DNA from: Incurvaria masculella
Taxonomy: Eukaryota > Arthropoda > Insecta > Lepidoptera > Incurvariidae
NCBI GenBank assembly: GCA_946894095.1
Contig: OX335642.1
Coordinates: 22,517,021 to 22,581,020 of the forward strand
DNA: 64,000 bases
Direction: 5' to 3'
Position numbers and translations under genes: made by a program. The notes beneath the pieces were generated by a model, which was given only the letters and a program-made list of their open reading frames with translations, did not search any database and was not told the DNA's origin. Shown piece by piece: positions 2,106-40,392 of this stretch. The first letter of the stretch is position 1. The number at the start of each line of letters is the position of its first letter.

Positions 2106-2266
2106 CTTTACGGGCGGCAGACAGCAGATCAGGCGCAGAAATCTGTGCGTCAACAGCGACTGGAGCCAGCCAGTTCTACAGCTTTTCTCCAGAGCCGGCT
2201 GCATCATTACCAGCTGCACCAGCATGGCCAAGAGTGTCGTCATCAACACCACTTCATATAGGACCA
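2106..2266 (-). CDS. Exon 11 of the FAMeT-channel gene: TM3 and start of the cytoplasmic loop
   Basis: The acceptor is TTTACCACAG and the donor AAG/GTATTC; phases are 1 to 0 (161 bases). It encodes VVLYEVVLMTTLLAMLVQLV, which is TM3, then a basic stretch ending ICCLPPVK. The frame is open into a further exon that should carry TM4. I did not find it in the remaining 2.1 kb of the window. Confidence 0.82.
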
Positions 2267-5200
2267 CTGTGGTAAATTTTATAAATACACATTTTCACAT
2301 AATTGTGACAGGCAGAGATGATAGAGCGCCGTGTGATACGATCGCAACTACATCATCAACATCACTTTGACAGCTGTGCATCTATTGATTAGGGGTGGCA
2401 CAAATATGACCTTGGAATATTGAATAAAATCTGGGAAAATGTAAAAACAATACGGGAGTCAACGAACTTCAAATAATATATCTGAAGGACCTAATTTGAA
2501 GGTATGCATGCATATTGCACGAACAATGGATTCAAGCATAACATTGTTTTTGCTAATAGTGGCGTTAGAATTAACCGCTGTGATACAGCAGTTGATTCAT
2601 TGTATACCTCAAACAAAAAAATGAGATGGTAATCATGTAAGTAGGTAACCTAAGGTATTTAGCACAGACCTATGGAAGGTAGGGTATGGCTCGCCACCAT
2701 GGTGTCTATGTAGGAGAGTAGTGCGCAGAGCAGCACGGCAAGGCCACTGTAGAAAGCAACGCGTGTTGGCGCCAGAGGTTCAGTCCAGAATGATATCAGC
2801 AGGAATACCACAGCCGCTGCGAAACGATAAAAATAAAGTTAATAAGATTTTTTAGTGTTTTTAGTTCTAAATGAAATCATCTTTAATTCGGAAGCAATCG
2901 AAGATCTTTCCAGCAGGTTAACCAAATGTTAAATGTATTTACAAAAACTTTCGCAAAGGCGGTTAAGCTCGCTAATGCATATATTCTCTACGATTGTTCG
3001 GTAGTCATAATATCAAGCTAACATTGTACATCACATTACGTACGTTTTTTCGAAAAGGTTAAGTTAGGATATGTTAGTTACCTAGTAATATAGAAAAATA
3101 AACGGTTTAGAAAACTAGTTGCCGGAATTTTGCTAAATTACTAGGGACTTTTATATTACATTGCGAGATTTTGTGAGGCTTTATATTTCTATGATTATTC
3201 TGGTAAAATGATAAAAGTACAGAAAAGGGCCTAAACAAGCCCTGGAACTTACAAGTGTCCTCCAGTTTTCTGTGAGTTCTCGCATGTGTTAACATGGCCC
3301 AATTCGGATGGGGTGTCAGAAAAAATACTCTTTATAATACAATGTTTTTGAACTTACTCAGCAATGGCGTATAAAGTAAGACATTGAATGCCCCCTTCCT
3401 GTTGAAATTTAAACGCAACACCAGCTCGCTATTCTGTGTTGGATACTCATCGCCGTTGCATGTCACATTGGTGTAGGGCGAGTGGGAGGTGGGACTAAGC
3501 TGGTAGCCAGCGAAGGTTAAATCCCATTCGTTAACTATGAACGAGTTCTCCTGCAAGTAAAGTTTTCTTTGACACGATTTCGCTTGATATATTCTATTGG
3601 ATATTATGTTCATAGGTGAATACTGTGACCTGCTTCCTTTAGAGTTTTCGAGGACTTTGAGATATATTTAAATAACTACAGTTTCACTAAAGCCCGAGTT
3701 TATAATTAATTGCGTTATTTTATTTTCTCAAAATTATTCATCTCATATTTGTTTTAATAGATGAAGAGTAGACATTCGGTATTGTAAGCAAATCCACTAT
3801 TATACTGTCATGATATAAGTTAAGCCCACCACATGGTAACTAGGTGCCATGCCAGATGCTTTATAATGCACGGCAACTGCATGAAACAACCGGAACGCCA
3901 TCTTTCATTCAATGCTTCGGTACCAATTTGCTTAGAATTCTGCTAGGATGTAAGATCTGCATGGTTCTAAACATAAAACTGCATCAATTTGGTCTTCCAA
4001 ACTCCCCTGGAGCGATGTTTCACCTCAGAACTATCAGAAGCTTCTTCTTCAGCGATGTCTAGCATCTCGATGTGAATCTCCTCATGCATCTCCCAGGCTC
4101 CGATATACAGCTCGCAGGAATACTTGTCCCGAGGCCAAGCGCTCAAATTGCTAGATTTGTCTTCGCACCAACTCGAAACCTTCCATTCGAACAAACATTT
4201 ATTTATATAAGTTTATTGCACTCAAGAAAAATCTCTTACAACTTACAACAACTTCATTCTGGAGGCATTTTCTACCAGTCTACCTTTGGGTATCGTGAGC
4301 AGTAGTGCGAGTGGTAACTATGGAGAAAATAGCTTTAGAGGAAACATAATTCCTACAAAATATACAACAAATACACATTATACTTATACTTAAAAATATA
4401 ACTGTACATAAATATAACTACATCAATATCAATAAATAAATACTAAATACTATATATATAACGACACGCCTGGTGAAGGGGGGCTCGCTATCAGAGTGGT
4501 CCGACATGATGTAAAACCCGAATTTATAATCAGGATGTGATCTCTGTTGGTTTATTATTCACTAACAATCGATAATCGGTGATTTAACCGGATTGAATTG
4601 GTAAACGCGGCGAGTCCGTTACAGCGTGGCGACCCGACCGACCACTCAACCCAAAGTGTCCTATCTCTCGCTCACGAGGCATGTAGGTACTAACAGCGCC
4701 CCTAGTGCCTGTTTCGCCAACCCCTGTAGCGATCTCACCCAAGTAGAACTACTTGACGTTTCCAACTCTGCCGATAGATGGCGATACTTCGTAGGATCAT
4801 TGATAAACAATCAAACACTACTATGGAACTAAAAGTTGGCGTTACTGCAACGCCGACATATATGTATATATTATGAAAACAAATAAAAGATGATACTTAA
4901 TACAATATAATTAAAGGGAAAAAAAAAGAAAAAGAAATAAAAAACATACTGAAAAACTTAAAAAAGTACGAGGAAGGAAATTAAAGAAATCATAAAGACA
5001 GATAATAAGCAACCTCACCTTCGAGTAAGTAATTTGATTTGTACTAAGCAACTTCGCTTTTTCAACGAAAATTATATGAATGTAGGAACGACCGAGCGGC
5101 AAGGAAACATTAGTTTATAAAAGAAAGCTTTAAAAGGACTACTTTTCGCAGGTATTGTGTCTATAACCATTTCGCCACCCGCTCTATAAACCCATAATTT

Positions 5201-8200
5201 AGAATTCTCCAGCAGTGCCTACTATACTTGATTATTAATATACACATATCAACGTCGGAATTGTTATATTATGTTTGATAGTGAATGATAAAATTTAAAT
5301 TTTAGTTGCATTATTTGCAACATTACTGTCAAACGACGTGTTGTTCGGCCAATTGAACTGACACTTGCCATGGAACGATTTTCAATAAAACGTCGATAAC
5401 TGTTCAATTGGAAAATTAGTTTATCATGGTAACCTCCAGGCGACTATGATTTCCGATGCATCATTACCTTGCATTCTCAAAATTCGAATACTAAAATATA
5501 CGTACTGGTGTGCGAATGTGCAGAACTGCAACTCCAGAGCTTAAAAAGTAAATCGGTTCAAAAGTCTTGGACTCTAAGGCTCCGATTCCCACTGAACTGC
5601 AAAGAAATAATAATTCAAAAGTATATAAGTAAGAATCAATGCACTTGTGAGTAACTTCTTTGTTCCACTTAAGAACGGCCCGTAAGCTATGCTCCCCATA
5701 CAAACGTAGTTTACTAATCATTTGGAAACCGCTATTCCAATTAAATTGATATTTACAAGGCATGCAGACACAGATATAGCATAATATTAGATACCAAACA
5801 TCAAGTAAGTTGGAAGAGTGGTTTTAAAATTATTAGTAAACTACGTTTGTATGGGAGGCGAAATTTTATGATGCTTACGGGGCGACCTTAAGGTGGCCCA
5901 ACCCGCTCATCTCCCCATACAAAAGGGGAAAGAAGATCACGCCCATATTTCTTGTCAGAGATCCAAAATATTGCTCAAAGTAGCTTTATTTGATCGAACT
6001 AGATGTCTGATGACCATTGGCATTGTAAAATTGTGTTTGGTTTCTAAGTTATAAGGTCCGAAAGTTAGAATTTTTATACAATAACTTTGGAGGTGGATTA
6101 TGCAATGATAAAGTAAGAACATCGTAAAAAGATTAGTCATCAGACATAGCTTATTTAATCAAGATTTATGATCTATTTGGTTATTGTTAGAATTTTGACT
6201 ACAGCGGTCGTGAATTACTTTTAGCTATAAGTCGTTTTGAAATTAAAATTTTCGTAAATCTTACCCAATCATAAACTATGCACATTGTCTTTTTTGTGGA
6301 CATGTTGCATCTTCCTCATCACGGAGCCTGTCTTATTCTTTGAAACAGAGAAGGTCCCAGAGCGCAACAGCACGGTTTTGTACCGTGCCCGCAAATGAGT
6401 TGGGCCCGCCGGGTTGGGCCACCTTAAGAAATTACAGTACAGTAGGAGATAAACCTAAGTATGCACTTCTAATTAAGAGGATAATGGTGTGATGGAGTTC
6501 CATTAAATTTGCACGAGCCTGTCATATTACAAATATTTTTCAGACTATTTTCCCATTGAATAAATTAACTGAGCGAAATGAAATCATGAATCCATAATCA
6601 CGAATCAAGAAAAATCTTTTTACACCTGAGGTGCATCATGACATTTTGGAACCACTTCGAAGTCTGTTAGCTATTTATAGCGCCAAATAAATACACAATC
6701 TGTGAAAATTTCAGCTGTCTATCTGTTACGGTTACTGAGATACAGCCCTGTGACAGACGGACGGACGGACGGACAGCGGAGGCTTAGTAATAGGGTTCCG
6801 TTGGCACCCTTTGGGTACGGAACCCTAATAAACGATACCTTCTTAGCTTTGGTTAGGCATAGGCTTTAGCACTGTTGAGGGCTTAAACCAAATTGACTGA
6901 TGGTCCTTTAACCTTTTGAGTCTTAATAGCTAAGCTCCTAAACTAATTGAACTAATTTCAAGATGGCGTCTAACAATCGACGACATCGTTAAATTATTTT
7001 GAATAAATAATCAAACCAATAAAATTATGATATTCGTTGATTGTTGATGATTAATTTTTGTGTTAGCTATTCTAGCGATGAAGATGCCATGGTGTTACAA
7101 ATATGCGAAAACCTTAAGGAAATAGGTAAAAAAATCCTTTCCGCCATAAAATACTCCATAAAATTTGTAGCTGAGGATTAGGGGTGTCTAGCAGAAACAT
7201 AAAAATATATACGGCCATCTTCCATCCCATCCGGATGCATGGGAGCATCCCTCAAACGTAACGACTTTATAACAATCTCCATTTTGATATTTAATAGTAG
7301 ATACTCGTACCTGGTTTGAGTTCTTCTTTCCTTGAAAAGTTCTTTTTTTTCCACTAGGTAGGTCCATGTGTAGGAGTGATTTTAATGTTTTGCGTACTTT
7401 TCACAAAAATGCAAAACAACAAAACAATGTGTAATCGGGTAAGTATGAAATTCAATCAGTTTCATTTATTTGAAAAACTTACTTCAAAATATAAAATTCA
7501 GGTTTCCAAATCTCGCCCTGTCGGAAGATGAGCTGCGTAGTGCCGTTATATTTGTCAGGGTCCCACACTATCTGCTCGTCTTTCCAGCTCTGTAACAAAG
7601 TGACGAGAATGTATTTGCTTATGGAGCTTTCATATAACTTATAGTTGTGACGAGAATGTATTTTCTTTTGGAGCTTTCATATAACTTATATAGTTTATTT
7701 GTAAAGACCATGCCCGCCATTTTGCCAATTGGAGCAAGCCAGTCCGCACAAACAGCACGTCGGGCACAGCCATCGCCTCTCTCAACCATATTTTAGGGAA
7801 AGAAGAGACCCGAACCTTGCGTCACCGCAAGCAAGGACCTTAAAGCGACTACTCCAGTGGCATTTTAGTTTTTAGACGATTTAGTTTTAATACTATTATT
7901 TCTGTCATGAACTAACAGTGACCTCTTAACCAAGAGTCAAAATACATTATCATTATTATTCTTACTGCTAAGAATATATATATAGCATACTCTGTAAAAA
8001 TGTATGAATAAGATTCCTGTATGATACATATTCTGACCAATACCTACAACTAAATAATGCTTAACTAATTCGGGTGTACAGAGGCCGATTTTGTTTATTC
8101 AAAACAATTTTACATTCAATTTACTTAAATATTTTAATTATATTAATTATAAACATGGTTAAATAAACATTGTGTCCTACTGATGAGGAGCACACTGACG

Positions 8201-11200: not shown

Positions 11201-14200
11201 AGTTAGGAAAGTATGTAACTTTCCGGAAAGTTTCCAGGTAGGATTTCCAGAACCTCGTTGAGCTTAACGCGATCAAGATGCAGGCGTGCGTATGCAACGC
11301 GAAGCGGACTTCAGTCATTACAGCTCGAAGATACAACAGTGCATATGTATTGTCGACGATTACCGCGTTGGGGTTTTTCGTGTCGACCCGATGCATGACC
11401 TGAGCTTTGTACGCCATATCGAGGATAGCCAAGCTCGCCTAAACAGTTGGGAGTCCTAAACGGAGTGCACCAGTGTTTCCATGTATGCTCCACAGCCCTC
11501 ATAAGGTTTTGCGTGGAGTATTGTTCTCATTTGTGTCTCATCGTCGGAGGTGCATCTGAAATAATGTTAGGTCTCTCTCCGTGTTCTATCGTCATCGTCG
11601 GAGGTGCATCCGAAATAATGTTAGGTCTCTCTCCGTGTTCTATCGTCATCGTCGGATGTGCATCCGAAATAATGTTAGGTCTCTCTCCGTGTTCTATCGT
11701 CATCGTCGGAGGTGCATCCGAAATAATGTTAGGTCTCTCTCCGTGTTCTATCCTCATCGTCGGAGGTGCATCCGAAATAATGTTAGGTCTCTCTCCGTGT
11801 TCTATCGTCATCGTCGGAGGTGCATAAGGTGGACGGCCTCTTTTCTACCATCGCTCAACGAGAAGCGTACCTATTCACATTCTTAAAATAAGAAACGACC
11901 GAACCTTCAGTTTCTTTATCTAATAGGGTTCGTAAACTATGGAATGCAATCCCTATGTACATATTCATACTGTATCATAATAGTGCCTACAATTCAATTG
12001 CAAACATTAGGGCATTTGCATGAACAGCTTCGGAACCATCATTTTTAAATGTTAACCATAAACATATTCAAGAGTCTTGATTTTAAATAACTTAATCTTT
12101 TTCATGATTCATTCTTGTGTAATGACAAAAAAATCAGTCAAAATCACAGGTATAAACAATATTTGGCAATATTTGTATGCTACTAAGTGTTATTTACTTT
12201 ATTAAATGGATATACTTCTAGAGTAACTAATAAATTCTTAATTTAATGTTGCTCTGAAGGCTTTTGCCCAAATCACTGCAGCTGTCCTACGTCTCTAAGG
12301 TTGAAAGTTAGAGAATGCCTTACAGCATCATTTTCTTCCTCTTTGTAACCATATATATAGCTGCAAATATAGTATCCTTTCATGTTTCATTACTACGACA
12401 TAGCTATTCAGCGTCGCCAGCAACAAAGCAACCGAATGAAAATGGAATAAGAAAATTCTAACCGAAATGATCGTGTGATTTCATTCGGAAAAATATATGG
12501 CAAAAGTTTTAAAACTTAATTTGGAATAACATAATTTCTTAAGAACCGTTAAAACAGACGGAATTAGATTTTATAAGAAATATGCAGAACAATATTTTGT
12601 CACAAGCGTTTGTTGGCATGAGATTATCATGAAATTCAAATATCATTGGAAAATATGCAAAACATCTGTTGGGTGACGCGTGCAGGGTCTCGAAGCTCAG
12701 GGGCGCGGCGCTTTGCTTCTAAGGGCAGAAATAATTGGTTCGGACAATTTCCTTTCTCTCTCTGAGATGGATAAGTGTATTTCGTGTCGGGTGTTAGCTT
12801 ATCCATAGTTCGGAATACATGTCCCATTTCCCTACTAGCTATTAGAGTTTTGAGCCATCCCGGGTCTTTACCATCACATTGGATGAAAATATAGTCTAAG
12901 CGGCAATAAAAAATTGTCCGTGTTTTCCATCCAGTTCAATGCAGCAGTGACATTACTTCTTTCAAAATTTCATTATTCTAGACCATTGGGAGGTACCACA
13001 TAGGTTGACATTTATTTGCCAGTGTCTAAATATGCGGAACAATTGGCCGTATTTTTTGGTCGCGTTGACTTCAAAGCTAGATCTATTAAAAGCTCCAAGG
13101 ACCACGGACCTAATAATTGGATATGCATATCAACTTAATATACGCATTACTGATAAAATGGTTATGACATATAACTATATGGACAGACAGACCGACAACA
13201 AAGTGCTAATAGTATATAAGGGTTCATTTTTAGGGTTCTGTCCCAGAGGTTGTCAACGGGAATCTATAATTACTATGCCTCCACTATCCCTCCGGCCGTC
13301 CGTCCGTCGATCCGCCTATCAGCGGGCTGTATCTCTTGAACCATAGTGCAAAGGTAGACAGTTTTAAAATTGCACAGAGTATTTATGTCTGTAGTCGCTA
13401 TAACAACATGTATTTCAAAGAAAATATTAAAGAGACGATAAACGTGATTTTTGGCATGGTACAGAACCCTTCGTGTGCGAATCCTAATCGCACTTTGCCG
13501 GTTTTTGTAACTTTTGAGGGACGGACACTAAAAACCTTTTTGAATACCTTTTTACCAAGTTCATAACTATTTTTGGTACCTTTATTTTATTTACAAACGA
13601 TAAACAATTTTCATGTTCAAGTTCGAAGCAATCCAGACGAGATTGCTGAAGTAAGATGGGCGCTAGGGGTGGGTCTAAGTTGTATAGCTTCGGGCAAATG
13701 GGCAGAGACCGGACGTCGCCAGACGCTTGTTTATGAGCTATCAAGATCTAGATGCAGATAAGTCGTCCCTAAATCGGGGTTTCCCATGAAATATCAATTT
13801 AAATTTGTTTTGGTTACACTTGCTTTTATATTGATCATAAAGTAATTAATCATCCTGTCCCAAAAAGCGAAAAAAAATACACTCATGGTCTGGCTCTGCC
13901 GCCCGTTAGTAATACGCATTTTGTACCGTATTGTTTTTTATTAAAAATTGCTTGAAAATCAGAAAAAAAACCAATATAGGTATAGTTATGTCGTTGTATA
14001 CCAATATATTACTTTTGCTCAATGCTTTATACTTTTGCGGGCGGGTATTGAACCCGTGACCTCTGGTTCAGGCTGAAGATGAGGGATTCAATTTGATCGC
14101 TAGCAATGCATTTTTAAGTTTTCGTGACATAAGACTTTCTCGTTGGATTTTTTAAATGTTCGCAGGTAAAAGTATCATTTTTATTATTCTATCTAACACG

Positions 14201-29200: not shown

Positions 29201-32200
29201 GGCTGCTACTTTCATACAAACTGTGGTGTGGTGTAGAAGTACCCATGTGTTGTGTTGGGCTAATATCGTGATACATTTTGTATTTATTTGAAACAACATT
29301 ACCGTTATCGAATTTTCAAAATCAAAATCAAATCTTTATTGCCGTTCTTTGCTTATTAATACATTCAATATGTATTGGCTCACTCTTCATAGGTACGTTA
29401 GTCAAGCTACAACTGCCTGGTTAGGCGTGCAATATGACATTGCATGTCAATGTCAAATGTCAAATGTCATTGATTTGATGTTATCCAAAGACATTGAAGC
29501 AATGTAATCAGATTTTTCTGAATATTTTGAAAATCTGATAACAATGCTTAAATTAAGATGTCATTGGATAACCTCAATATCAGTAATACCACGATATCCA
29601 TAAAAAGAGAAATTCTATTTTTAGTCGAAGACTTTAAATTGAACTTTTCATCGAGCTTTTTATTTAACTTAAGAGTCAATGAGATTACGACAGTTCATAG
29701 TCAAGTTTTGAGGCTGTCGTCTCGTACATAGAGAGATATGGCGCGACTGAGCGTTAAGAAGGGCTGCCGTATCAATCATTTGTGAACGAGCCGGCAGACA
29801 CTAGCGTTTGTCCTTAAACTGTGTTTGATTAATTGCTAAACGCCGGATTCAGGGTAGGCCGTTAGGGATTTGACTTTATTGTGAATCAATCTCGGAAGCC
29901 GATTAAGTGGATCCAGATTTCTTAGTATGTATATTCAAGCTGATTTTAGATAATATCGTGGCAATTGCTTGTAGTATACCGAACACCATGTTCATTATTT
30001 CATCAGATTGCCCATTTTCGAATACAAACTGCACTTAACAAATCAATGGCGATGAGTCAAATCAAAATCGGCATTGCCAAAAAAAAGTACATTTTCTAAC
30101 TCTGTAATAATTTAAATCGCAGTGAAAATATTTACGAGGACTGGAATATGGCATACGAGTACATACAATTTCCCCAAACTCCCTTCCGAAGTATTTCCCC
30201 CAAAGTTCAACCTGTTGTCCTTCAAAGATGGTGAGAAGAAGCTCCTGGCCGGCCGGTATGGCATCTTTACATGAATAAATGAATTATTTCGTAACACAAA
30301 ATCGCCTGTTCTATAAACTTTGCTTTATATGTTGAAGCAAATATTACATTTCAGTGGAAGACTGTTTATAAGTAAATAGTTATTATGTATGTATGTATTT
30401 TCCCTCGATTCCAAAACTATAGGAAAATAATAGCATACTAATGAGACCAATCTGTTGCCTTGGCATATGACGTCAATATGGAGAAATACTCACCAACACA
30501 ACGCCAACCAAGGTTTCCAGGACGGAGCTCACTGCGTCATAGTGCAGGGAAACAATAGTCAGCCCTATTTTGACGGTGACACGGGGTGACGGTGGCGTCA
30601 GGGGTGACCGTGACCCGAGCAGATCCACCTTCAGCTGCTGCGCCGTCGTCAGGCTGGGCATCACCACTTCTGATGTGGTCACGTCTGGAATTGTGTATGA
30701 TTCGGTTATGAGGTACGAATGTAGCCAACAGTTAATTAGAACTAATTCAAAATGTTCAAATGTACCGCACTCTTTGTACTTTAATAAAATGAAAAATCAG
30801 AAAAAATATATTTGGTATTTTAAATGTATTCTTAACTGTTTTTTATGCGAGTGGACATAGATAGTTAATAATAACTGGGTTAATAACACATCACATGGGA
30901 ACTAGGTGTATTTTTCTTATAATGCTCGGCTACATTGAACGGGTTGGAAAACGCGGAGCACTTTCATTGCCACTTCGAACATAGTTCATTAAATGCGATG
31001 ATACCAACCGGGTGGAATTAACTCTACAACCTAGTAAGTAAGGAAGAGGACCTATAGTTTTACGTGGAATCCAAACCACGGCCAGCCTCAACAGAATAAG
31101 CTGAGGAAAAAAGGTCGATCTTGACAGAACGAAAGGAAATAGAATCGACATAAGCAAGGAAAATAAATAAAAAGATAAACCTTAAGTATTTGATGCAGAG
31201 GGTGCTCAACTCTCATTAAAACACGAATGTTTCATTGATAATGCCACCAATTTCATGATTTCGATGAGTTCCTTCTGTAATGTGGTTTGATTTATGTCCA
31301 GGTCAAAAAAGCGAATACAAACTCTCAGCAGCATCGTTTCCGGCTACTGGACACTCGTACAGGAACTTGGCCTCGACGTTGGTCCAAGAGGCAAAGCTGA
31401 AGTAGTTCACGGAGAGAGGGTCCGAGTCCTCCCAGTGAAGGAACGGGATCACTTCGCCTTCCCTGCCGATGTCGACCGAGCCATCTGCAAGATAAAAAGG
31501 AAATTGAACAGTGCCGAGTCGAAGGTGATTTTTTTTTTCTAGAGTATATAGATAGTTATGATCCACGGAATAATGACGTCGACACAGCCAGCTAAGAACA
31601 ACACAAACAATTTAACAAGGATATATGAATGGTTGCGAAGCGAAGATCTGGTTTGTTTAAGCACCTGTACTATAGGTGGACACTCTCGACCGGCTCGTAG
31701 CTTAATGGTGCAGGGACTTGCCTTGCATCTCAGAGGTCTGAGTTTCAATCCCCGCCATGTTCATACACTATATTTCCCTTTCTGAGTTGGGTAAGTGCAT
31801 TTCGCCTCAAATGCAATATGTTTCTTTTTTCGGAATACATCTAAAACTGTAGGTCCTCTGTCCCTAGTGGTAGGTTTACCTTACGTTACATTATGTTAGT
31901 ATCATCGCTTCGAATGTTATGTAGTCAAAGCAGTAATGAAAAATTGTCCGTATGTTCCATCCAATTAAATGTTGCTTTGCTCATATATGGAAAGTCCTGG
32001 CATGGCACCTAATTACTTCTGAAATGCGGTATGATGACTTAATACCATGACTGGTATGAGCCATCAGTGCTCAGTTACATAAAAAAGAAACTCTTTTATT
32101 TAAGATAGACAGTAAAGTTATCACTTCTCCAAAATGCCGGCTTTTCCGTGTCACCAGTCGAGATAATAATAGCTAATATATCAATATCGAATACTTATTT

Positions 32201-35200: not shown

Positions 35201-38200
35201 ATTTTACCGGGCTCCGCTCGGATCAATGTCTAAATCGAAATTGGCCTGAGTGGAGCCGGGTACCTCAGCTATTATTTCATTAATTGTGTATTGTTTTCGC
35301 CAGTGCGTCACAATTTGGTATCCATAACGCAGATTCAGTCCGTTCGTTTTAATGCACGAAATTAATTTCATCTTTATTTTTAACCTATTGTATGCACTCC
35401 TAAAAGGTCGTTCTATAGAGCATCAAATTTTATGTTTCACGACGCTAGTAATAGGTAAATGACTAGTTAACCGTAAATGGATGAATATTCGCTAGCTATA
35501 TTATTCTGAAAACGATGTTTGGGGACGTGCGACTAATTATGCGGAAGTTCAGGCCTCAGATTTGTGGCTGTGAGGTCATAGATTAATTTTAATATCATTC
35601 CACTTGGAAATGTTATGAGCCTGAGGTTCTATCGAATCATTATCTTTTGAGAGTCAAATCTTGTGGAATCAAATATCGATAGAGCTGTGATATATATTCG
35701 CTGATTTCTCTTTATTTATGAAACCTGACATGGATGGGTACCACACTATTAACGACATGATATTAGCCTAATACACCATATTCCTGAAGGAATCATGACC
35801 TTCCCTTCACGAGCACGGCTACACTGAACTAGATGGAAAATGCGGGTAGTTTTTCATTGTCGTTTCAACCATAGTTTCATCCAATGCGGTGGTACCAACC
35901 TGGGCGAGCTTAATCCTATACGATCTAGCAGACGAATAGGACATACAGTTTTACATAGGTTCTGAACCATGGACCAGCTAGAAATGCACTTATCTATTTC
36001 AGAAAGAGAAAAAAAGTGGTGCTTAAGGCTGTTCCGACCCATATAAAGTTGTTTGCACATATAACGCAAAAAGTATTGCACTTTAAGCCACGAATTAATA
36101 ATAAAAGTTTAATATAGTCATATTACTTGCAGCGAAAACAATTTCACAATTTCAGGATTATTGGTTTTGTTACAATTTATTTAAATACGCCACACACACA
36201 CACACACATAACAGCGCCATCTAACGGTGTAAAACTTCTAATCGGCAATTACAACGAAACCATTAAACCTGAAATTGTGAATATGTTTTCGCTGCAACTA
36301 CTATGGCTATATTTATATTTTTGAAGAATTCGTGCCTTAAAGTGCAATACTTTTTGCGTTCTGTGTAAAAAAAAACATTGTATGGGTCGGAACATCCTTA
36401 ACTGCGGCGAGGATTTAAACCTATAATCTCTCGCATGGAAGGCAAGTGCTCTAGCCCTTAAACCACGAGCTGTACAGTACTGTACTACTAACTGTGTACT
36501 GCTAATACTAGCACCTTAAGAAAATAACTAGACATGGAAGTGAGTAAAAGCATAACTGTCAGTCAGTCAGTCAGTCAGCGTGTTTGCGTCCACTGCTGGA
36601 CATACGCCTCTCCATTTTTTCCTCCAGTCCTTCCGGCCCTCAGCGGTACGTAACCACTGCATTTGATGTCGCCGTCCCACCTGGCAGGTGGTCTTTCCAC
36701 ACTCCGTTTTCCTTTCCATAACTAGCTTATGCTTAATTGTTCATGTCGACAACATGTGTATTATTATCATGTTCCACTGACCATCCGTGATCTTAATCCA
36801 GAAGGCCCGGAAGTGTATCGGCGACAGGATGCCCAAAGTTCGTTCGGATGCCTTCGTGAGGCGCCGCTGCATCCTTCGGAGCTCCGAGAACCTGTTGGCG
36901 CCGCCACCTAACACTGCAACACAACTTAACAGTGAGGTTAATAAAAATCACAGAGAAATCAAGCCGATGTGAGTTCTGTGAGCAAAACAAAACTAGTGTT
37001 AAGTAAATATACTTGTTCGTCTAAGCATTTACGTCGCTTATTCCACAAGGAATGTGACATGTACGTATGTATAATCGACCGCGGAAGCAAGGACACATTA
37101 ATTCAAGAAAGATCCCTGTAAAAACAAACACTTTTCGAATATACTGCAAGGCTGGTATCATTCGCGGGTATTGCGAATATAATGGAGACTCTTTCATCAC
37201 TTATCACACCCTCGACGAGGGGAAAAGTTATGCAGCCAACGTTTGTTGCACCAACGTTTCCTGGGCCTATAAACGTTGCTCAAACCGCCTAGCTTGAGTC
37301 ATTTAAAGCTATAGTGATTTTGCCTAAAATGTTTGTATTTTAGTTAGTGCTCTATTTAAGGAAATAAAACATAAAAAACATTATCGCGGATGCCATATCT
37401 GGCTCCCGATCATCGATATAAGTGTCAGAGTACCCAGCCGTTGACTTAGCGAGCATGGAAGGACAGGAGTAGTGATTGAAACTTATTCGTATGGCGTAGC
37501 CACGAGTAACTGGAAAACGTCTAACTGTAGTAGTAGTAGTCCTTATGTGTCGTTGGAACTCGAGAAAATCTATAGTAAGTGGATTCGTAAGTGAACGCAC
37601 TAGCCGGCACTGCCGCCATTGTATATAACATGTTTTATATCGTCTTTGGACGAACTTTCAGCTTCCTTTTGACCCGGAATCAGAGGTGAGCAGAGAAATA
37701 AACATAACCAATCAGTCAGTCTTCTTACCGATTTCGTACACAGGGTCGGAAGGTCCCGGCATTTCGATCGGCGAAAGCAGAATGTGACCATTGCTGGCAG
37801 CTAGTATGGCGATGTGCATCTCAAACATCGCTCCAAGTTCGGGATCAGGCTGCGCAGACACCTTGTAGAACGGCCCGTAGTGATAACCGTTCGTACTAAG
37901 GTGCTCCTTGCAGCGGTGCGCCACTGAAATTAAAGATGAGAACATAGAATCAGTTAATTGATGTAAAACTTTACTTAACTTGGATGAACGGGGCGAGGAT
38001 TTGAACCCAGCCTTATGGTATGCTAGGCAAGTCCCCGCGCCACTAGACTACGAGCTTACTAATTCGTTAACTAACATATGTATTCCTCCATTCTTCCCTG
38101 TTATGTATTTAATTACATTTAACCATCGCAGATTTCATAATTGGCCTGCAGGTCTGACTCTGCAAACAACTGACGTTGACTACTAAGTTCCACTCTGTCG

Positions 38201-40392
38201 CCCCGGCCAGGCGTGTGTATAGGTCCAATCTGCTGCAATCGCGCTCCGGAAAGTTGCATTTCGCTGCAAAATCTCGGAATTATTCGACCTGTTAAACGCT
38301 TCTACTGCGCAGCGTCTAGACGGAGGAAGTGACAGCCGGCGCCCCGTGGAACTTTCTACTTACTGGATCTTGTAAAGGTGCGGTCACGGTGAAAAGACCA
38401 AACGTATAATTTACCATTGCGCGCTTTCACATTTTTGATCATGTTTATTATTTTGTTGTAGTGTAGGCTTTCTTTGGCTAGTGTTTTATTTGTTCCAGAT
38501 ATCTTTCTTAATAGACAATCTTTAATAACTCAAAAATAATATACCGCGAAGGGTTAATGTAGGAGTAAGAAAATGGACCCCTTAACGTCGCTTGTGTCAG
38601 TGACTGAGGGTTCATTTTAATAATAAATTTGAATTTTCAATAAGAATCAAGGTCACTTCATGCGGAAATCGCGTGAAACTGTAACTCACTGTCCCTACAT
38701 ACTAGGTGAATTGTAGGATGTAGAATAAAATGTAATAATGTTAAAAAAATCTGGTATATTTTGTATGAAAAACTGGTTGTTGACCCAAGAGAAACGAATC
38801 TTCAACTCATGTTTGGAATAGTCATTTATGTAATTGACTCGTCCATCCCTCGCAATGATTGAGTCCATTTCAAAACGAACTTGTCCAACCGGATAAGACG
38901 GTGACAGGTCGTCTGACGGTTACGTTTTAAATCAGTTTGCACCTGAGCCCACCCAAGTAGCTATAAAAGCGTCTCTTCCTAAACTTTCTGCTTTTGAAAA
39001 TTTTTAGAGATTTTATATTTTTCTGAGATATGGCATATGTCGTCAAAACATGACTTTTAAGGTTCATAAAAACTCATAAAGCTATTTTTTTATATTGATT
39101 GAGCCATTCTTTTGATATTTTGCAACAATTTTGAGAACTTTCTAGTTCAGTAGGATTCGATGAAATGACGTTTGGATTATATGTCTGCTGCTCTAACCAC
39201 AACAGTTAGTCCGAATCTATCATTTAAATATAAATGAAATATATGACGACAATCAACGAGTTAATTTTTTATTTGCACCTACAGTGACATTAAACATCGT
39301 GATTTTGTTAAAAAGAAAGCAAATCACACTTATTCTTTCAATAAATGCTAAAAACTATTCTTAAATAAAGAGATCTAAAACAATAAGAAAAGTACATATT
39401 ATGTTTCAGCAGATACCTAGATCATTACCCTAAATATCGGATGCACGGGAACGCCGCTTTATAGAGCCAGAATAAATAATACTCCAGTGAGATTCAAAGA
39501 GCGTCAATTTTAAAAGTAATTAAATATAAATGGAGTTGTGAATCGTAACAAGAAATGGACAGAATTCGTAAAGCAACAATTTAGATTTTAGTCCTACGCT
39601 CACTTAGTGTCTGTTGCAAATCAGAAGTCGATTCATTTTAAGACTACTAAGAAAGGAATTAGTTTATTATCAAGCTGACATTTTAAGTGGTGTCTGGAAA
39701 AGTATTTCGCCTGAATACATTCGAAGATAATAGTTCATAATTGTATTTAAATTAATCAATCCAAATAAGAAACTCTTTAAGAATAAGTTGTAAGTTCAAA
39801 AATGGTTCGTCAGATGTTCGTCAAACTATGCATGTGTAATGTCAAAAGTGGCTTTATCTTGCTTGAACAATATGTCACGGAATAGCCATTCGTTTCGCAT
39901 TTCTACTAGAAAGATTTACAGTAATGAAATATAGAAAATATCAACGCTATTTGTGATCTATTGAGTGATTGAATTTTTCAGCGATAGTGAGTGTGAAAGA
40001 CCAGAAAAAGCCTTTTAAAAAATATTGGTTTTTCATTAATAAAAAATTCTCTGAAATAAAAAAATACGTTGTGAAACAGCCTACAACTTTACTGCATGAC
40101 GTTAATTTAGGTTTACATATTTATTTATCAGAAAAAATATTCTTTTTTTTTTTTTGAAGTGCTGGCATACGGCATATGCCAAGCTTAACATTAAAAAAAC
40201 TTTAGATCTGATAACATTTCTTCGATGTCTTTTTTTTTTAATTTTAACATCTTTACTTAGTCTAGTCTATTTACTTAGATACATTGTTATCAATTTAAGG
40301 TTCTGATACTCACTGCTATATGTGAAGTTATAGTCAGCAAAAACCCCCTGAAAAAGGATTTGAGTGACAATCACTAATGATTTCCAGGCCAT
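2106..40392 (-). CDS. FAMeT (DUF3421) domain fused to a Cys-loop ligand-gated ion channel subunit; multi-exon, 3' incomplete
   Basis: The gene is read as exons 40392-40314, 37923-37729, 36913-36782, 31484-31353, 30684-30494, 7589-7483, a tentative one ending at 5019, 4179-4024, 3550-3358, 2816-2670 and 2266-2106. Residues 1-19 are a signal peptide (MAWKSLVIVTQILFQGVFA). Residues about 20-180 match the FAMeT/DUF3421 fold (HILLSP, DPVYEIVLGG, ILSPIHFRAFWIK, GREGEVIPFLHW). A pentameric-channel ligand-binding domain follows (VTVKIGLTIVSL, SWKDEQIVWDPDKY, GEIWKPEF, Cys-loop WPRDKYSC, IGAW, EWDL), then TM1, TM2 and TM3. Splice phases agree at every join except around exon 7. Known: Cys-loop subunits form pentameric channels at the plasma membrane; DUF3421 was named after crustacean FAMeT, whose enzymatic role is disputed. 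Inferred: one secretory-pathway membrane protein with an extracellular FAMeT module. TM4 and the stop codon were not found. A decayed gene is possible, but every placed exon is open. Confidence 0.82.
2670..2816 (-). CDS. Exon 10 of the FAMeT-channel gene: TM1 end, TM2
   Basis: The acceptor is TTTCGCAG and the donor GTCTGT; phases are 1 to 1 (147 bases). It encodes TAVVFLLISFWTEPLAPTRV, then AFYSGLAVLLCALLSYIDTM and VASHTLPSIG. This is the end of TM1, the TM1-TM2 linker with P-T-R, the pore-lining TM2, and the TM2-TM3 loop. Confidence 0.85.
3358..3550 (-). CDS. Exon 9 of the FAMeT-channel gene: loop C and start of TM1
   Basis: The acceptor is TTTACTTGCAG and the donor GTAAGT; phases are 0 to 1 (193 bases). 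It encodes ENSFIVNEWDL, the loop C region with a single Cys (NVTCNGDEYP) and the pre-TM1 strand LVLRLNFNRKGAFNVLLYTP. The vicinal Cys pair of alpha-type nicotinic subunits is absent. EWDL and the R-K before TM1 match the family. Confidence 0.85.
3800..3965 (-). mobile_element. SINE body fragment (shared-body family)
   Basis: Read in reverse it carries the family's tail (GGCTAATA, TGGCATGGCACCTAG) and body blocks, with an internal deletion and divergence. It lies in the intron just beyond exon 8 of the channel gene. Confidence 0.6.
4024..4179 (-). CDS. Exon 8 of the FAMeT-channel gene: Cys-loop
   Basis: The exon is 52 codons, phase 0 to 0, with donor GAG/GTGAAA. The acceptor GGAAG is the only in-frame AG after an upstream stop. 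It encodes VSSWCEDKSSNLSAWPRDKY, then SCELYIGAWEMHEE and an acidic tail. W-P-x-D-x-x-x-C and G-(A/S)-W are the conserved Cys-loop and loop B positions. The two cysteines are 16 residues apart instead of the family's usual 13. Confidence 0.8.
4510..4623 (+). mobile_element. Possible solo LTR end with primer-binding-like sequence
   Basis: The segment starts TGTAAAACCC and ends GTTACA (a TGT...ACA border). It is followed two bases later by GTGGCGACCC, resembling the primer-binding site of gypsy-type elements. No gag or pol frames follow. The left end could lie further left. Confidence 0.3.
5019..5102 (-). CDS. Tentative exon 7 of the FAMeT-channel gene (right edge unresolved)
   Basis: The minus strand reads IIFVEKAKLLSTNQITYSK up to a good donor (AAG, then GTGAGG) and would join exon 8 in phase 0, giving TYSK-VSSWC. 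That resembles the strand before the Cys-loop in related subunits. However, no AG acceptor in the phase left by exon 6 lies downstream of the in-frame TAA near 5111. Either a short extra exon is missing, or the acceptor has been lost, or this is not the exon. The right boundary given is only the limit of the open frame. Confidence 0.35.
5695..5855. mobile_element. Short MITE with 24-bp terminal inverted repeats
   Basis: CCCATACAAACGTAGTTTAC continuing to 5718 is exactly mirrored at 5832-5855, enclosing about 110 bases without coding capacity. It lies about 30 bases from the next TTAA element. Confidence 0.65.
5888..6427. mobile_element. 540-bp TTAA-flanked MITE, copy 1
   Basis: The ends are TTAA-GGTGGCCCAACCCG and its inverse CGGGTTGGGCCACC-TTAA. 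The full length is repeated, inverted, at 17431-17980. TTAA on both sides fits a piggyBac-type target duplication, although the TIR itself does not start CCC. No transposase is encoded. Confidence 0.75.
6640..6832 (-). mobile_element. GTCCGTCCGTCC-type lepidopteran repeat
   Basis: Read in reverse it carries AGGGTTCCGTACCCAAAGG, then GCTGTCCGTCCGTCCGTC, the CACAGGGCTGTATCTCAG block and AAATTTTCACAG. The same family recurs at 9680, 13225, 18868 and 27965. It has no coding capacity. Confidence 0.7.
7483..7589 (-). CDS. Exon 6 of the FAMeT-channel gene: ligand-binding domain, WKDE...WDP and IWKP motifs
   Basis: The acceptor is TTTGTTACAG and the donor GTAAGT; phases are 0 to 2 (107 bases). It encodes SWKDEQIVWDPDKYNGTTQL, then IFRQGEIWKPEFYIL. 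The W-x-D-x-x-x-x-W-D-P-x-x-Y-x-G and IW-x-P-(D/E) motifs are diagnostic for nicotinic-type subunits. It is separated from exon 5 by an intron of about 23 kb. A 47-bp tandem duplication begins 11 bases beyond the acceptor. Confidence 0.85.
7600..7690. repeat. Two-copy 47-bp tandem duplication next to exon 6
   Basis: GTGACGAGAATGTATTT starts at 7600 and again at 7647, each followed by GGAGCTTTCATATAACTTAT. It begins 11 bases beyond the exon 6 splice acceptor, so it alters the branch-point region. Confidence 0.8.
7695..7790 (-). repeat. Interspersed repeat shared with 40765-40870
   Basis: The blocks ATGGCTGTGCCCG, GACTGGC and CTCCAATTGGCAA are shared, in opposite orientation, with 40765-40870. 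The family is not identified. Confidence 0.5.
8660..8880 (+). mobile_element. LINE 3' end: reverse-transcriptase C-terminus remnant with (CTGA)n tail
   Basis: One frame reads NVGRPPASWDDDI, then KQWFRTTAGRED, a stop, and FVQQWTQTR before the terminal stop and CTGACTGACTG. This is the C-terminal signature of lepidopteran endonuclease/reverse-transcriptase LINEs. Further copies lie at 36558, 48887 and 49167. Confidence 0.75.
8885..9679. other. Intron DNA, nothing recognised
   Basis: AT-rich intron of the channel gene with a short less AT-rich patch at 9150-9245. I saw no gene. Confidence 0.4.
9680..9775 (-). mobile_element. GTCCGTCCGTCC-type repeat, short copy
   Basis: The GGAC-rich stretch is followed by AGCAGAGGCTTAGTAATAGG and GTTCCGTTTGGGTACCC, as in the copy at 6640. 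Confidence 0.65.
9780..11540. other. Intron DNA, nothing recognised
   Basis: No coding homology seen. The part at 11090-11450 is less AT-rich and holds several overlapping chance ORFs on both strands. Confidence 0.4.
11543..11826. repeat. 54-bp minisatellite, five full units plus a partial
   Basis: Units start at 11543, 11597, 11651, 11705, 11759 and 11813, each beginning GTCGGAGGTGCATC and containing AATAATGTTAGGTCTCTCTC. The units differ by only one or two bases. The period is 18 codons, so frames stay open on both strands by arithmetic; I do not call a protein. Confidence 0.97.
11830..12695. other. Intron DNA, nothing recognised
   Basis: AT-rich, with no family resemblance on either strand. 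Confidence 0.4.
12700..12960 (+). mobile_element. SINE copy, degenerate (shared-body family)
   Basis: It contains the blocks TTTCTCTCTCTGAGATGGAT, CGGAATACATG, CACATTGGATGAAA and TGTTTTCCATCCAGTTCAAT in family order. Confidence 0.65.
13225..13555 (+). mobile_element. GTCCGTCCGTCC-type repeat, long copy
   Basis: It starts TTTTTAGGGTTCTGTC, carries CCGTCCGTCCGTC, GGGCTGTATCTCTTGAACC and GTCGCTATAACAAC, and ends near CGCACTTTGCCGGTTTTTG. Compare 27965-28265. Confidence 0.7.
13760..15080. other. Intron DNA with a tRNA-like B box
   Basis: On the minus strand, CACGGGTTCAATACCCGC near 14038-14056 resembles a tRNA B box and T-arm, probably a SINE head remnant. Otherwise nothing recognised. Confidence 0.35.
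15085..15330 (-). mobile_element. SINE copy (shared-body family)
   Basis: Read in reverse it carries the body blocks GTTCCACGT, CAGTGTC-type divergence, ACCGTATTGAGTCAAAG and AAATTGCCCATTTTTCCATC, and the tail GGGCTAATATCAC. Confidence 0.7.
15340..16930. other. Intron DNA, nothing recognised
   Basis: AT-rich, with only short chance ORFs. Confidence 0.4.
16945..17340. repeat. Interspersed repeat shared with 25525-25690
   Basis: GAGTCAACTGACGGATCAGA, AAATCGTTTTATA and CGCTATGCTAGGTC recur in the same order at 25540-25690. The family is not identified. Confidence 0.5.
17431..17980. mobile_element. 550-bp TTAA-flanked MITE, copy 2 (inverted)
   Basis: It matches 5888-6427 throughout in the opposite orientation, with the same GGTGGCCCAACCCG end and TTAA on both sides (17431-17434, 17977-17980). 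A fragment of one end also lies at 19100-19160. Confidence 0.75.
18125..18240 (+). mobile_element. Left end of an ACCGACTTCAA element
   Basis: AACCGACTTCAAAAAAGGAG, then GAGGTTATCAATTCGTC and a poly(T) run as at 1166. I did not find the other end. Confidence 0.55.
18868..19030 (+). mobile_element. GTCCGTCCGTCC-type repeat, short copy
   Basis: TTTTTAGGGTTCCGTTCCC, then CGCTGTCCGTCCGTCCGTCC and the CACAGCACTCTATCTCACG block. Confidence 0.65.
19190..20299. mobile_element. 1.1-kb element with identical 167-bp terminal inverted repeats
   Basis: Bases 19190-19356 and 20133-20299 are exact reverse complements over the full 167 bases by eye. The interior (776 bp) has several TAGGTA/TACCTA motifs and no ORF resembling a transposase. 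The arms contain TTTTGAAGTCGGTGCC, echoing the GAAGTCGGT ends of the 1166 element. A target duplication was not clear. Confidence 0.85.
20505..20560. repeat. Perfect 26-bp hairpin with a 4-base loop
   Basis: ATAATCAATATAAATATAAT and the rest of the arm to 20530 is exactly mirrored at 20535-20560; the loop is TATT. Confidence 0.95.
21181..21556 (+). mobile_element. SINE, near full length, tRNA-like head
   Basis: The head has a polymerase III A box (GGTGTAGGGGCTAGAGG) and B box (GGTTCTAAACC at 21231). The body carries TTTCTGAGTTGGATGAGTGC, GTAAAACTGTAGGTCCC, GGTACCACCGCATTGGATGA, TGTTTTCCATCAAGCTCAG and GGCATGGCACTTAA. Confidence 0.8.
22570..22820 (+). mobile_element. SINE body copy (shared-body family)
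   Basis: TGGTTCGAATTTCACGTTAA, then GGTACCATCGCATTGAATGA, GTGTTTTCCATCCAGTTCAA, TTGGCATGGCACGTAGTTCC and the tail TATTAGCCATCCATGCC. Confidence 0.75.
23768..23930 (-). mobile_element. SINE body fragment (shared-body family)
   Basis: The reverse reading gives the GTCCCC, GTAGGGTTTAAGCC, GGTTCCATAGCATTGC and CGTGTTTTCCATGGAG blocks. Confidence 0.65.
24090..24440. other. GC-rich patch in the large intron
   Basis: CpG-rich DNA with CGCACTGCGCGCGCGCAT. ACTCCAGTAGCGAGAGTCGC, then CGGCTACAAGCC, recurs 67 bases later with a few changes. It could be an LTR or promoter remnant of a retroelement; no family recognised. Confidence 0.4.
24849..25080. repeat. Two-copy 116-bp tandem duplication
   Basis: GTTTTCGGCT starts at 24849 and 24965. 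Both copies continue ATTTGAAGTTCATCTAATTT and GGGATATAGCAATTCTAGGA. Confidence 0.88.
25525..25690. repeat. Interspersed repeat shared with 16945-17340
   Basis: AGAGTCAACTGATAGATCAG, AAATCGTTTCATACAAAATG and GCACTATGCTAGGTCG recur from 16945, separated here by a long poly(T). Confidence 0.5.
26705..27510. repeat. Cluster of AACGTATAAT/ATTATACGTT motifs with palindromes
   Basis: About twelve copies of AACGTATAAT or its inverse lie at 26705-26815 and 27050-27510, with CCATGCA and GGTTTTCTTTTTTTG next to many. At 27410-27435 CACAACGTATAA and TTATACGTTGTG form exact 12-base arms around CA. A GC-rich insert (27125-27325) separates the groups. Confidence 0.75.
27965..28265 (+). mobile_element. GTCCGTCCGTCC-type repeat, full copy
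   Basis: It runs from TTTTTAGGGTTTCGTACCC through TGTCCGTCCGTCCGACCGTC, CAGGGCTGAATCTCATGAAC and TTGCCGCTATAAC to GTCCGACTCGCACTTGGCCG and a poly(T). It is the most complete member in the window. Confidence 0.75.
28296..28332. repeat. Perfect 16-bp hairpin with a 5-base loop
   Basis: GTTAGTATTAGATGAA is exactly mirrored after ACTGA. Confidence 0.92.
28935..29280 (+). mobile_element. SINE copy interrupted by a hairpin
   Basis: Family blocks GATTCGGAATCCACGTAAAC and CCCCTTCC precede, and AATGTAGCCGTGCAATAAAA and GGGCTAATATCGTGATA follow, the hairpin at 29041-29157. The hairpin replaces the middle of the body. Confidence 0.65.
29041..29157. repeat. 40-bp perfect hairpin inside a SINE
   Basis: CGTGTATTCTTGGCATTCAG and the next 20 bases (to 29080) are exactly mirrored at 29118-29157. 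After one mismatch TAACAG and CTGTTA add six pairs, leaving a 23-base loop. Confidence 0.95.
29475..29575. mobile_element. Foldback MITE of about 100 bp
   Basis: GTTATCCAAAGACATTGAAG, then AATGTAATCAGATTTT, is imperfectly mirrored by AAAATCTGATAACAATGC and GATGTCATTGGATAAC. One half recurs at 33217 and 46705. Confidence 0.6.
30165..30270 (+). mobile_element. LINE ORF2 C-terminal remnant (LPxxVFPP type)
   Basis: The frame reads LPSEVFPPKFNLLSFKDGEK, then KLLAGRYGI. This is the terminal motif of LINE reverse-transcriptase ORFs with LWNxLP...FK...LLGR. Relatives lie at 47560 and 57785. Confidence 0.6.
30494..30684 (-). CDS. Exon 5 of the FAMeT-channel gene: start of the channel ligand-binding domain
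   Basis: The acceptor is ACACAATTCCAG and the donor GTGAGT; phases are 1 to 0 (191 bases). It encodes VTTSEVVMPSLTTAQQLKVD, then PRVTVKIGLTIVSLHYDAVS and SVLETLVGVVL. It aligns with the first strands of Cys-loop receptors (P-V-x-V-x-x-G-L, then NxVWLxxxW). The Trp/Arg at the loop D position is Gly here (VGVVL). Confidence 0.8.
30890..31095 (-). mobile_element. SINE body copy (shared-body family)
   Basis: Read in reverse it gives GGATTCCACGTAAAACTATA, GGTCCTCTTCCTTACTTACT, GGTATCATCGCATTTAATGA and CTAGTTCCCATGTG. It sits in the short intron between exons 4 and 5 of the channel gene. Confidence 0.75.
31353..31484 (-). CDS. Exon 4 of the FAMeT-channel gene: end of the FAMeT domain
   Basis: The acceptor is TTTTATCTTGCAG. 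It encodes DGSVDIGREGEVIPFLHW, then EDSDPLSVNYFSFASWTNVE and AKFLYE. The GREGE...PFL block is the hallmark end of FAMeT domains. The phase-compatible donor (phase 1, at 31353) is the weak GTCCAG. The nearby CCA/GTAGCC at 31348 would end in phase 0 and would then need one more small exon before exon 5. The domain assignment is sure; the exact 3' edge is not. Confidence 0.75.
31691..32085 (+). mobile_element. SINE, near full length, tRNA-like head
   Basis: The head GGCTCGTAGCTTAATGGTGC has a degenerate A box; GTTTCAATCCC (31742) is the B box. Body and tail run to the poly(A) after CAGTTACAT. Confidence 0.75.
33113..33345 (+). mobile_element. Second tRNA-derived SINE family
   Basis: ATAGCTTACTGGTTAGAGCA (A box region) and CAATTCGAATTCG (B box) are followed by CAGACAATC and ATTGAAGCATTGAAATCAGA. 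The same order, inverted, is at 46690-46815. It differs from the shared-body family. Confidence 0.55.
33350..35720. other. Intron DNA, nothing recognised
   Basis: This is part of the intron between exons 3 and 4. A less AT-rich patch at 34740-34960 holds a chance ORF with no family resemblance. Confidence 0.4.
35725..36472 (-). mobile_element. SINE split by a TTAA element: body 35725-36022, head 36402-36472
   Basis: The reverse strand gives the tRNA-like head (GGTTTAAATCC B box) at 36402-36472 and the body and tail at 35725-36022. Between them lies a 371-bp inverted-repeat element with TTAA at each junction, so the element jumped into an existing SINE. Confidence 0.75.
36027..36397. mobile_element. 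371-bp foldback element with about 140-bp TIRs, TTAA target duplication
   Basis: The outer ends GGCTGTTCCGACCCAT and ATGGGTCGGAACATCC and inner blocks ACGCAAAAAGTATTGCACTT and TGCAGCGAAAACA are mirrored. A (CA)n run lies between the arms. TTAA at 36023-36026 and 36398-36401. Confidence 0.8.
36558..36720 (-). mobile_element. LINE 3' end with (TGAC)n tail
   Basis: On the minus strand it reads RPPARWDGDIKC, LRTAEGRKDW and EAYVQQWTQTR, then the stop and TGACTGACTGACTGAC. It lies 61 bases from channel exon 3, on its donor side. Confidence 0.75.
36782..36913 (-). CDS. Exon 3 of the FAMeT-channel gene: centre of the FAMeT domain
   Basis: I chose the acceptor GTTGCAG over a later TTAG because it restores the family signature EIVLGG across the junction; phases are 1 to 1 (132 bases). 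It encodes VLGGGANRFSELRR, then TLGILSPIHFRAFWIKITD. This matches the family pattern GGW-N-x-x-S-x-IR followed by ILS-x-x-x-FRGFWI. The usual Trp after GG is Gly here. The donor is GTCAGT. Confidence 0.85.
37729..37923 (-). CDS. Exon 2 of the FAMeT-channel gene: first half of the FAMeT domain
   Basis: The acceptor is TTTAATTTCAG and the donor GTAAGA; phases are 1 to 1 (195 bases). It reads from MAHRCKEHLSTNGYHYGPFY through FEMHIAILAASNGHILLSP to GPSDPVYEI. The pattern of a beta-strand followed by a small residue, H-I-x-L-S, and then P-x-Y-E-I is the recognisable front of the DUF3421/FAMeT domain. Confidence 0.85.
37985..38058 (-). mobile_element. SINE tRNA-like head, solitary
   Basis: The reverse strand reads AGCTCGTAGTCTAGTGGCGC and, at the B box, GGGTTCAAATCCTCG. 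It lies about 60 bases upstream of the exon 2 splice acceptor. Confidence 0.65.
38060..40313. other. First coding intron of the channel gene
   Basis: A GC-richer patch at 38190-38370 (GGAAGTGACAGCCGGCGCCC) has no recognised content. The remainder is AT-rich with no gene. Confidence 0.4.

Follow-up and report, generated by a model that had tools for sequence, protein, structure and literature searches.

We analysed a 64,000-nt stretch of the Incurvaria masculella genome (assembly GCA_946894095.1, contig OX335642.1, positions 22,517,021–22,581,020; C2 in our own contig labels), referred to below as the window. Its minus strand carries 11 of the 12 exons of a gene that, once spliced, encodes a protein of 608 residues without internal stop. 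This protein bears a signal peptide, a Methyltransf_FA (FAMeT) domain, a short linker, a Cys-loop ligand-binding domain (LBD) and four transmembrane (TM) helices, in this order. We consider it very probable that the locus represents one intact gene for a divergent Cys-loop subunit, i.e. a subunit of a pentameric ligand-gated ion channel (pLGIC), with an additional extracellular N-terminal FAMeT domain.

All 11 introns of the spliced gene are GT-AG and in phase, and the minus-strand exons that a first-pass annotation had placed at the outer ends, 40392 and 2106, do exist. Exon 1 (40314–40392, minus strand like all exons that follow) contributes the start codon and the signal peptide and ends in phase 1 at the donor GTGAGT. 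The FAMeT domain is distributed over exon 2 (37729–37923), which holds the invariant Cys31, exon 3 (36782–36913) and exon 4 (31323–31484), which holds the invariant Cys180-Pro181 and the start of the linker; all three end in phase 1, exon 4 at the donor AGA/GTTTGT. Exon 5 (30494–30684; donor phase 0) encodes linker and the start of the LBD, which continues in exon 6 (7483–7589; loop D Trp255 and loop A), exon 7 (5506–5596) and exon 8 (4024–4179; the Cys-loop, C-x16-C, and loop B Trp348). Exon 9 (3358–3550) covers the loop C region and the segment before TM1, exon 10 (2670–2816) TM1 and TM2, the pore helix, and exon 11 (2106–2266) TM3 and the start of the TM3-TM4 loop. The FAMeT part is flanked and divided by four introns, each of them in phase 1; those of the receptor part are of mixed phases.

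The first-pass annotation had recognized TM1–TM3 within the window, which is correct, but the gene does not end there: exon 12, with the rest of the TM3-TM4 loop, TM4 and the stop codon, lies 11.7 kb past the left edge (−11675 to −11887, minus strand; locus L010). TM4 was initially sought in the left end of the window plus 10 kb without success, and the exon was located once 30 kb more were included. The match came from a profile built on the C-terminal ends of the relatives (E 1.5e-07), and the stop codon of the exon coincides with the end of that profile. Exons 10–12 align with the corresponding parts of the TM region in the relatives described below. The gene is complete and intact.

Pfam searches with the spliced protein identified Methyltransf_FA (PF12248) at residues 40–181 (E 2.3e-35, profile positions 5–139 of 140) and Neur_chan_LBD (PF02931) at residues 216–389 (E 4.2e-19, 69.3 bits vs a cut-off of 26). 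Both matches lie on one spliced protein and far above chance, and the fusion suspected in the first-pass annotation is real. However, its label for the module, DUF3421, has to be replaced by Methyltransf_FA: the profile of DUF3421/DM9 (PF11901; we take the two to be names of one family) found no match in the 608 residues. In the genome the DM9 profile yielded at least 16 matches on contigs C1, C5, C6 and C13 and none on C2, and the PF12248 profile at least 11, seven on C6, two on C2 and one each on C1 and C16, both counts being lower bounds. The two matches on C2 are exons 3 and 4 of the fusion gene; C6 carries DM9 too. The match on C16, a 193-residue open frame (L021:4200-4778, minus strand), is weak (32.4 bits vs a cut-off of 24.2) and stands apart from the C6 cluster. 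A sequence search with the FAMeT part against solved structures gave nothing significant (best E 0.71).

Homologs were collected from protein databases among candidates of 0.55–1.75x the query length that shared 5-residue words with the query. The fused query returned 34 proteins, all of which contain both domains (34/34); a profile built from 24 of these returned 58 (55/58 with both domains), and a search in which all query words came from the FAMeT part also returned 58 (56/58). Because the length and shared-word limits exclude shorter FAMeT proteins, these counts are not representative of FAMeT proteins generally. Altogether 60 distinct homologs were obtained, and 57/60 carry both FAMeT and LBD. 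The domain-architecture search in other insects proposed earlier thus supports the reading as a single gene, in which a FAMeT module of extracellular type precedes a channel subunit. The homologs comprise named Lepidoptera, one caddisfly, one beetle and six further records, the orders being those to which we take the genera to belong. No dipteran sequence was returned; this absence, like that of Hymenoptera, means little because the word-based, length-limited searches required shared 5-residue words.

The three proteins without both domains look like partial or degraded models: upon rescanning, P0052 (549 aa) reached 19.5 bits for the LBD vs the cut-off of 26, P0057 is labelled partial and begins within the LBD, and P0058 (374 aa) matches the FAMeT profile at its end only, with 15.2 bits for the LBD. 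The presence of the architecture outside Lepidoptera is demonstrated by P0060 from Arctopsyche grandis (Trichoptera, 591 aa), with 28% identity to the relative P0001 through FAMeT, LBD, TM1–3 and TM4, and by P0059 from Popillia japonica (Coleoptera, 740 aa), with 27% identity through FAMeT, LBD and TM1–3. Residues 560–740 of P0059 contain a second signal-peptide-like stretch and a FAMeT domain at the end; this tail is probably the start of a neighbouring tandem copy in the beetle. In P0035 (Tuta absoluta) the TM2 segment occurs six times in succession (residues about 437–701), which reflects either duplication of the exon or a mistake in assembly or annotation. Six proteins with the source label 'lgn' (P0007, P0019, P0020, P0028, P0042 and P0045; 579–612 residues, P0020 without signal peptide) are encoded on contigs of 1859–1994 bases. 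Such contigs leave no space for introns, and we therefore infer that the six records are transcript assemblies. Judging by these cDNA-sized contigs, the FAMeT-LBD junction is very likely transcribed in relatives.

For residue-level comparison we aligned the window protein with 48 of the 60 homologs (49 rows; 12 proteins of <570 or >640 residues were dropped). The 47 relatives counted below are all of these homologs but the caddisfly, namely 41 named Lepidoptera and the six further records. This alignment decides the end of exon 4. The first-pass annotation had set the donor at 31353, which would remove Cys180-Pro181; both residues are present in 47/47 relatives and in the caddisfly P0060. This donor was rejected because the invariant pair would be lost, and the donor at 31323 retains Cys-Pro and linker. 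The statement that exon 4 has no stop does not hold either, as reading past this donor meets an in-frame TGA at 31303–31305 (minus strand), six codons on; the stop lies in intron 4 and would be read only from transcripts left unspliced at the exon 4 donor.

This stop raises the question whether two adjacent genes were wrongly joined, a secreted FAMeT protein from exons 1–4 with its end at the TGA (31305–31303), and a channel subunit that begins with exon 5. An ATTAAA at 30785, an exon 4 donor that deviates from what we take to be the usual consensus and an ATG-initiated frame of 73 codons in intron 4 (from 31151), hydrophobic at its beginning, would all be in line with such an arrangement. However, when the 73-codon frame was tried as a first exon it matched 0/60 homologs (BLASTP, E 0.1) and was rejected, and part of it falls within a dispersed repeat (intron positions about 234–439). 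No homolog of the 60 matches anywhere inside intron 4, residues beside the exon 4/5 junction are conserved in the alignment, and 57/60 homologs are fused, six of them on cDNA-sized contigs. We therefore regard two separate genes as scarcely credible. The repeat itself (window 31089–30884) has copies of 73–78% identity at five other places in the window and at several other loci.

A gene that yields not only the fused receptor but also, via read-through of the exon 4 donor, a secreted protein of 195 aa with FAMeT alone would account for the open frame up to the TGA and for the complete FAMeT domain and signal peptide encoded upstream of it. Intron 4 contains no AATAAA and a single ATTAAA, however, and we consider such a second product unlikely.

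Two features of the surroundings were recorded. The 23-kb intron 5 harbors a tandem array of a 54-base unit (5.3 copies, 97% matching, 11538–11825), the minus strand of which is open as an 18-residue repeat. On the plus strand, exons of a GH18 chitinase are located at 54399–58900, head-to-head with the receptor gene; PF00704 was found in 4/4 tested pieces, one slightly below the cut-off. The Papilio machaon model P0054 fuses receptor and chitinase, and since this model joins the two the neighbourhood seems to be conserved.

The alignment demonstrates conservation of the fusion protein within Lepidoptera. Cys31, Cys180, loop D Trp255, Trp281, Pro283, both Cys-loop cysteines and the loop WP are kept in 47/47 relatives, and loop B Trp348 in 44/47. 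The two Cys-loop cysteines occur in 49/49 rows, spaced by 16 residues in 39/49 and by 14–19 in the other 10. In the loop C stretch, adjacent cysteines (CC), as expected for alpha subunits of nicotinic acetylcholine receptors (nAChR), are found in 0/49 rows. Positions in the pore helix M2 were numbered by profile alignments to solved nAChR chains: 0' is Arg in 47/47 relatives, 2' is Trp in 46/47, and −1' is Ser in 26/47, Asp in 6/47 and Glu, the residue of cation-selective channels, in 2/47; the window protein carries Thr at −1'.

A structure prediction of the joined protein, as the first-pass annotation had suggested, was run on the relative P0001 and delivered a folded head: when residues 31–180 are averaged in blocks of ten, the predicted local distance difference test scores (pLDDT) are 80–90, except in one block with a mean of 61. 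TM helices were predicted at 424–445, 450–468, 476–503 and 580–606. In structure comparison residues 201–607 align to nAChR chains, and the best structural matches are nAChR and 5-HT3A.

The question over ion conduction arises from the pore itself, in which the usual charge ring is largely absent and the 2' residue of the relatives is bulky. One may tentatively think of a non-conducting receptor-like or regulatory subunit in which the Cys-loop scaffold would serve to carry the FAMeT head, a possibility to which the rare −1' Glu, the Trp at 2' and the loop C stretch without adjacent cysteines all point. However, four TM helices are present in the P0001 model, the 0' Arg is invariant in the relatives, and the 2' Ala of the window protein would leave the pore unblocked, so that we hold this possibility to be the less probable one.

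Several observations weigh against the assignment as an intact, FAMeT-bearing Cys-loop subunit. The Pfam profile of the membrane region, PF02932, found no match in the window protein at E <= 0.1, likewise none in P0001 and P0016, and scored 25.7 bits in P0059 and 14.6 bits in P0060, both below the cut-off of 28.1. Domain packing in the P0001 model is uncertain (predicted template modelling score, pTM, 0.47). The evidence for transcription comes from relatives, and the cDNA nature of the six short contigs is deduced from their length. Finally, the window protein is an outlier: its mean identity is 39.9% compared with 46.6–55.7% in the other lepidopteran-type rows, and it has Ala for Trp at 2' and Leu for Gly at 14', both nearly fixed pore positions.

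Such divergence could in principle indicate a decaying copy, with a better conserved gene elsewhere in the Incurvaria masculella genome; low mean identity and the loss of nearly fixed pore residues would be expected from it. However, the reading frame and splice sites are complete, and outside the locus the FAMeT matches, at least nine, lie on C6 (seven), C1 (one) and C16 (one). The phylogenetic position also speaks against decay: a 28-row tree was built from the window protein and 27/60 homologs, among them a partial Operophtera sequence and the beetle protein cut to 560 residues, and in it the window protein is placed beside all other lepidopteran rows, at supports of 87/80 and 93/94 (not starred). 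The tree was rooted for drawing only, and deep placement is unsure because the beetle and caddisfly branches are long. Decay at this locus thus appears quite improbable.

With nAChR/5-HT3-like Cys-loop receptors the fusion proteins share the LBD profile, the Cys-loop cysteines with WPxD, the Trp residues of loops D and B and four TM helices. In contrast to these receptors they possess an extra N-terminal domain, rarely have Glu at −1', lack the cysteine pair of loop C and, in the window protein, leave PF02932 unmatched; the Cys-loop mostly spans 16 residues, against 13 in its canonical form. Canonical insect FAMeT proteins (pfam12248-DUF3421) share the Methyltransf_FA domain, whereas the fusion is without DUF3421/DM9, has a signal peptide and is joined to a channel. 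CPAMD8, one of the thioester-containing proteins, is an extracellular protein. It carries a Methyltransf_FA module as well, although it is not a channel itself (PMC9363628; here and below, literature statements refer to passages of the papers named), and the premise of the first-pass annotation that the module is intracellular only does not stand. The closest likeness in position is found in DeCLIC and other prokaryotic pLGICs, which have an extra outer-side domain before the LBD (PMC9897478, PMC12664993), just as PF12248 precedes PF02931 in the window protein. The N-terminal domain of DeCLIC consists of two jelly-roll lobes (PMC9897478) and is likened to the FAMeT head by position only.

Three lepidopteran homologs (P0013, P0018 and P0040) bear the name NtR, known from Drosophila and house fly, in public records, and Drosophila NtR is a possible further member of the group, a lead from record names. 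In the passages of PMC6998375 in which the term was looked for, NtR is not mentioned, and 'NTR' in a passage of PMC9998090 denotes the N-terminal region. Among open-licence PubMed Central papers, in the passages considered, we found no description of a FAMeT-channel fusion, and no paper there on CG6698 or on Neur_chan_LBD together with farnesoic acid. A survey of FAMeT proteins, which states that insects have only the pfam12248-DUF3421 type, names no channel fusion in the parts considered, and its main text is without the terms ion channel, acetylcholine and neurotransmitter (PMC10015273). PF12248 is one among 83 accessions of a training list in PMC4992803, and terminal parts of sequences were discarded by the authors of PMC4795631. 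Public databases already list the homologs together with their two Pfam domains and call them, for instance, nAChR, 5-HT3 or NtR; the architecture is therefore recorded, yet undiscussed within the literature searched.

How such a subunit might have arisen and work can be outlined. The FAMeT module would have joined an ancestral receptor gene via phase-1 introns, before the split between beetle and moth/caddisfly. The signal peptide would direct secretion of the FAMeT-bearing end, a Cys31-Cys180 disulphide probably closes the FAMeT domain, and the subunit is expected to form a pentamer. FAMeT domains would then form a crown on the outer side, over the helix with which the LBD begins, on a linker of ~20 residues, where they may bind a partner or ligand or aid assembly and thereby modulate a channel with a non-canonical pore. 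By analogy to the N-terminal domain of DeCLIC, which influences gating kinetics (PMC9897478, PMC12664993), such an accessory role in binding, assembly or modulation is best supported, and we regard it as the most likely role of the FAMeT head of this divergent pentameric subunit. Catalysis is unlikely because methylation by FAMeT was never reliably demonstrated in vitro and hormone levels of the fly mutant were unaltered (PMC10015273). A bolder proposal, which we find doubtful, is that the FAMeT head is the main sensor, for a glycan, peptide or lipid-like ligand, and that the classical transmitter site and the pore were remodelled, in a class of animal pentameric channels found at least in moths, caddisflies and beetles; if true, an accessory N-terminal domain would for the first time be known from eukaryotic pLGICs.

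Extra N-terminal domains have been described for prokaryotic pLGICs (PMC12664993) and are said never to have been observed among eukaryotic homologs (PMC9897478), a statement that the insect fusion family appears to contradict. The family shows the FAMeT module in a further setting, tethered to the membrane at the outer surface, and gathers lepidopteran proteins automatically named nAChR or 5-HT3 subunits into one distinct group. It thereby offers an animal system for asking what role an N-terminal accessory domain plays.
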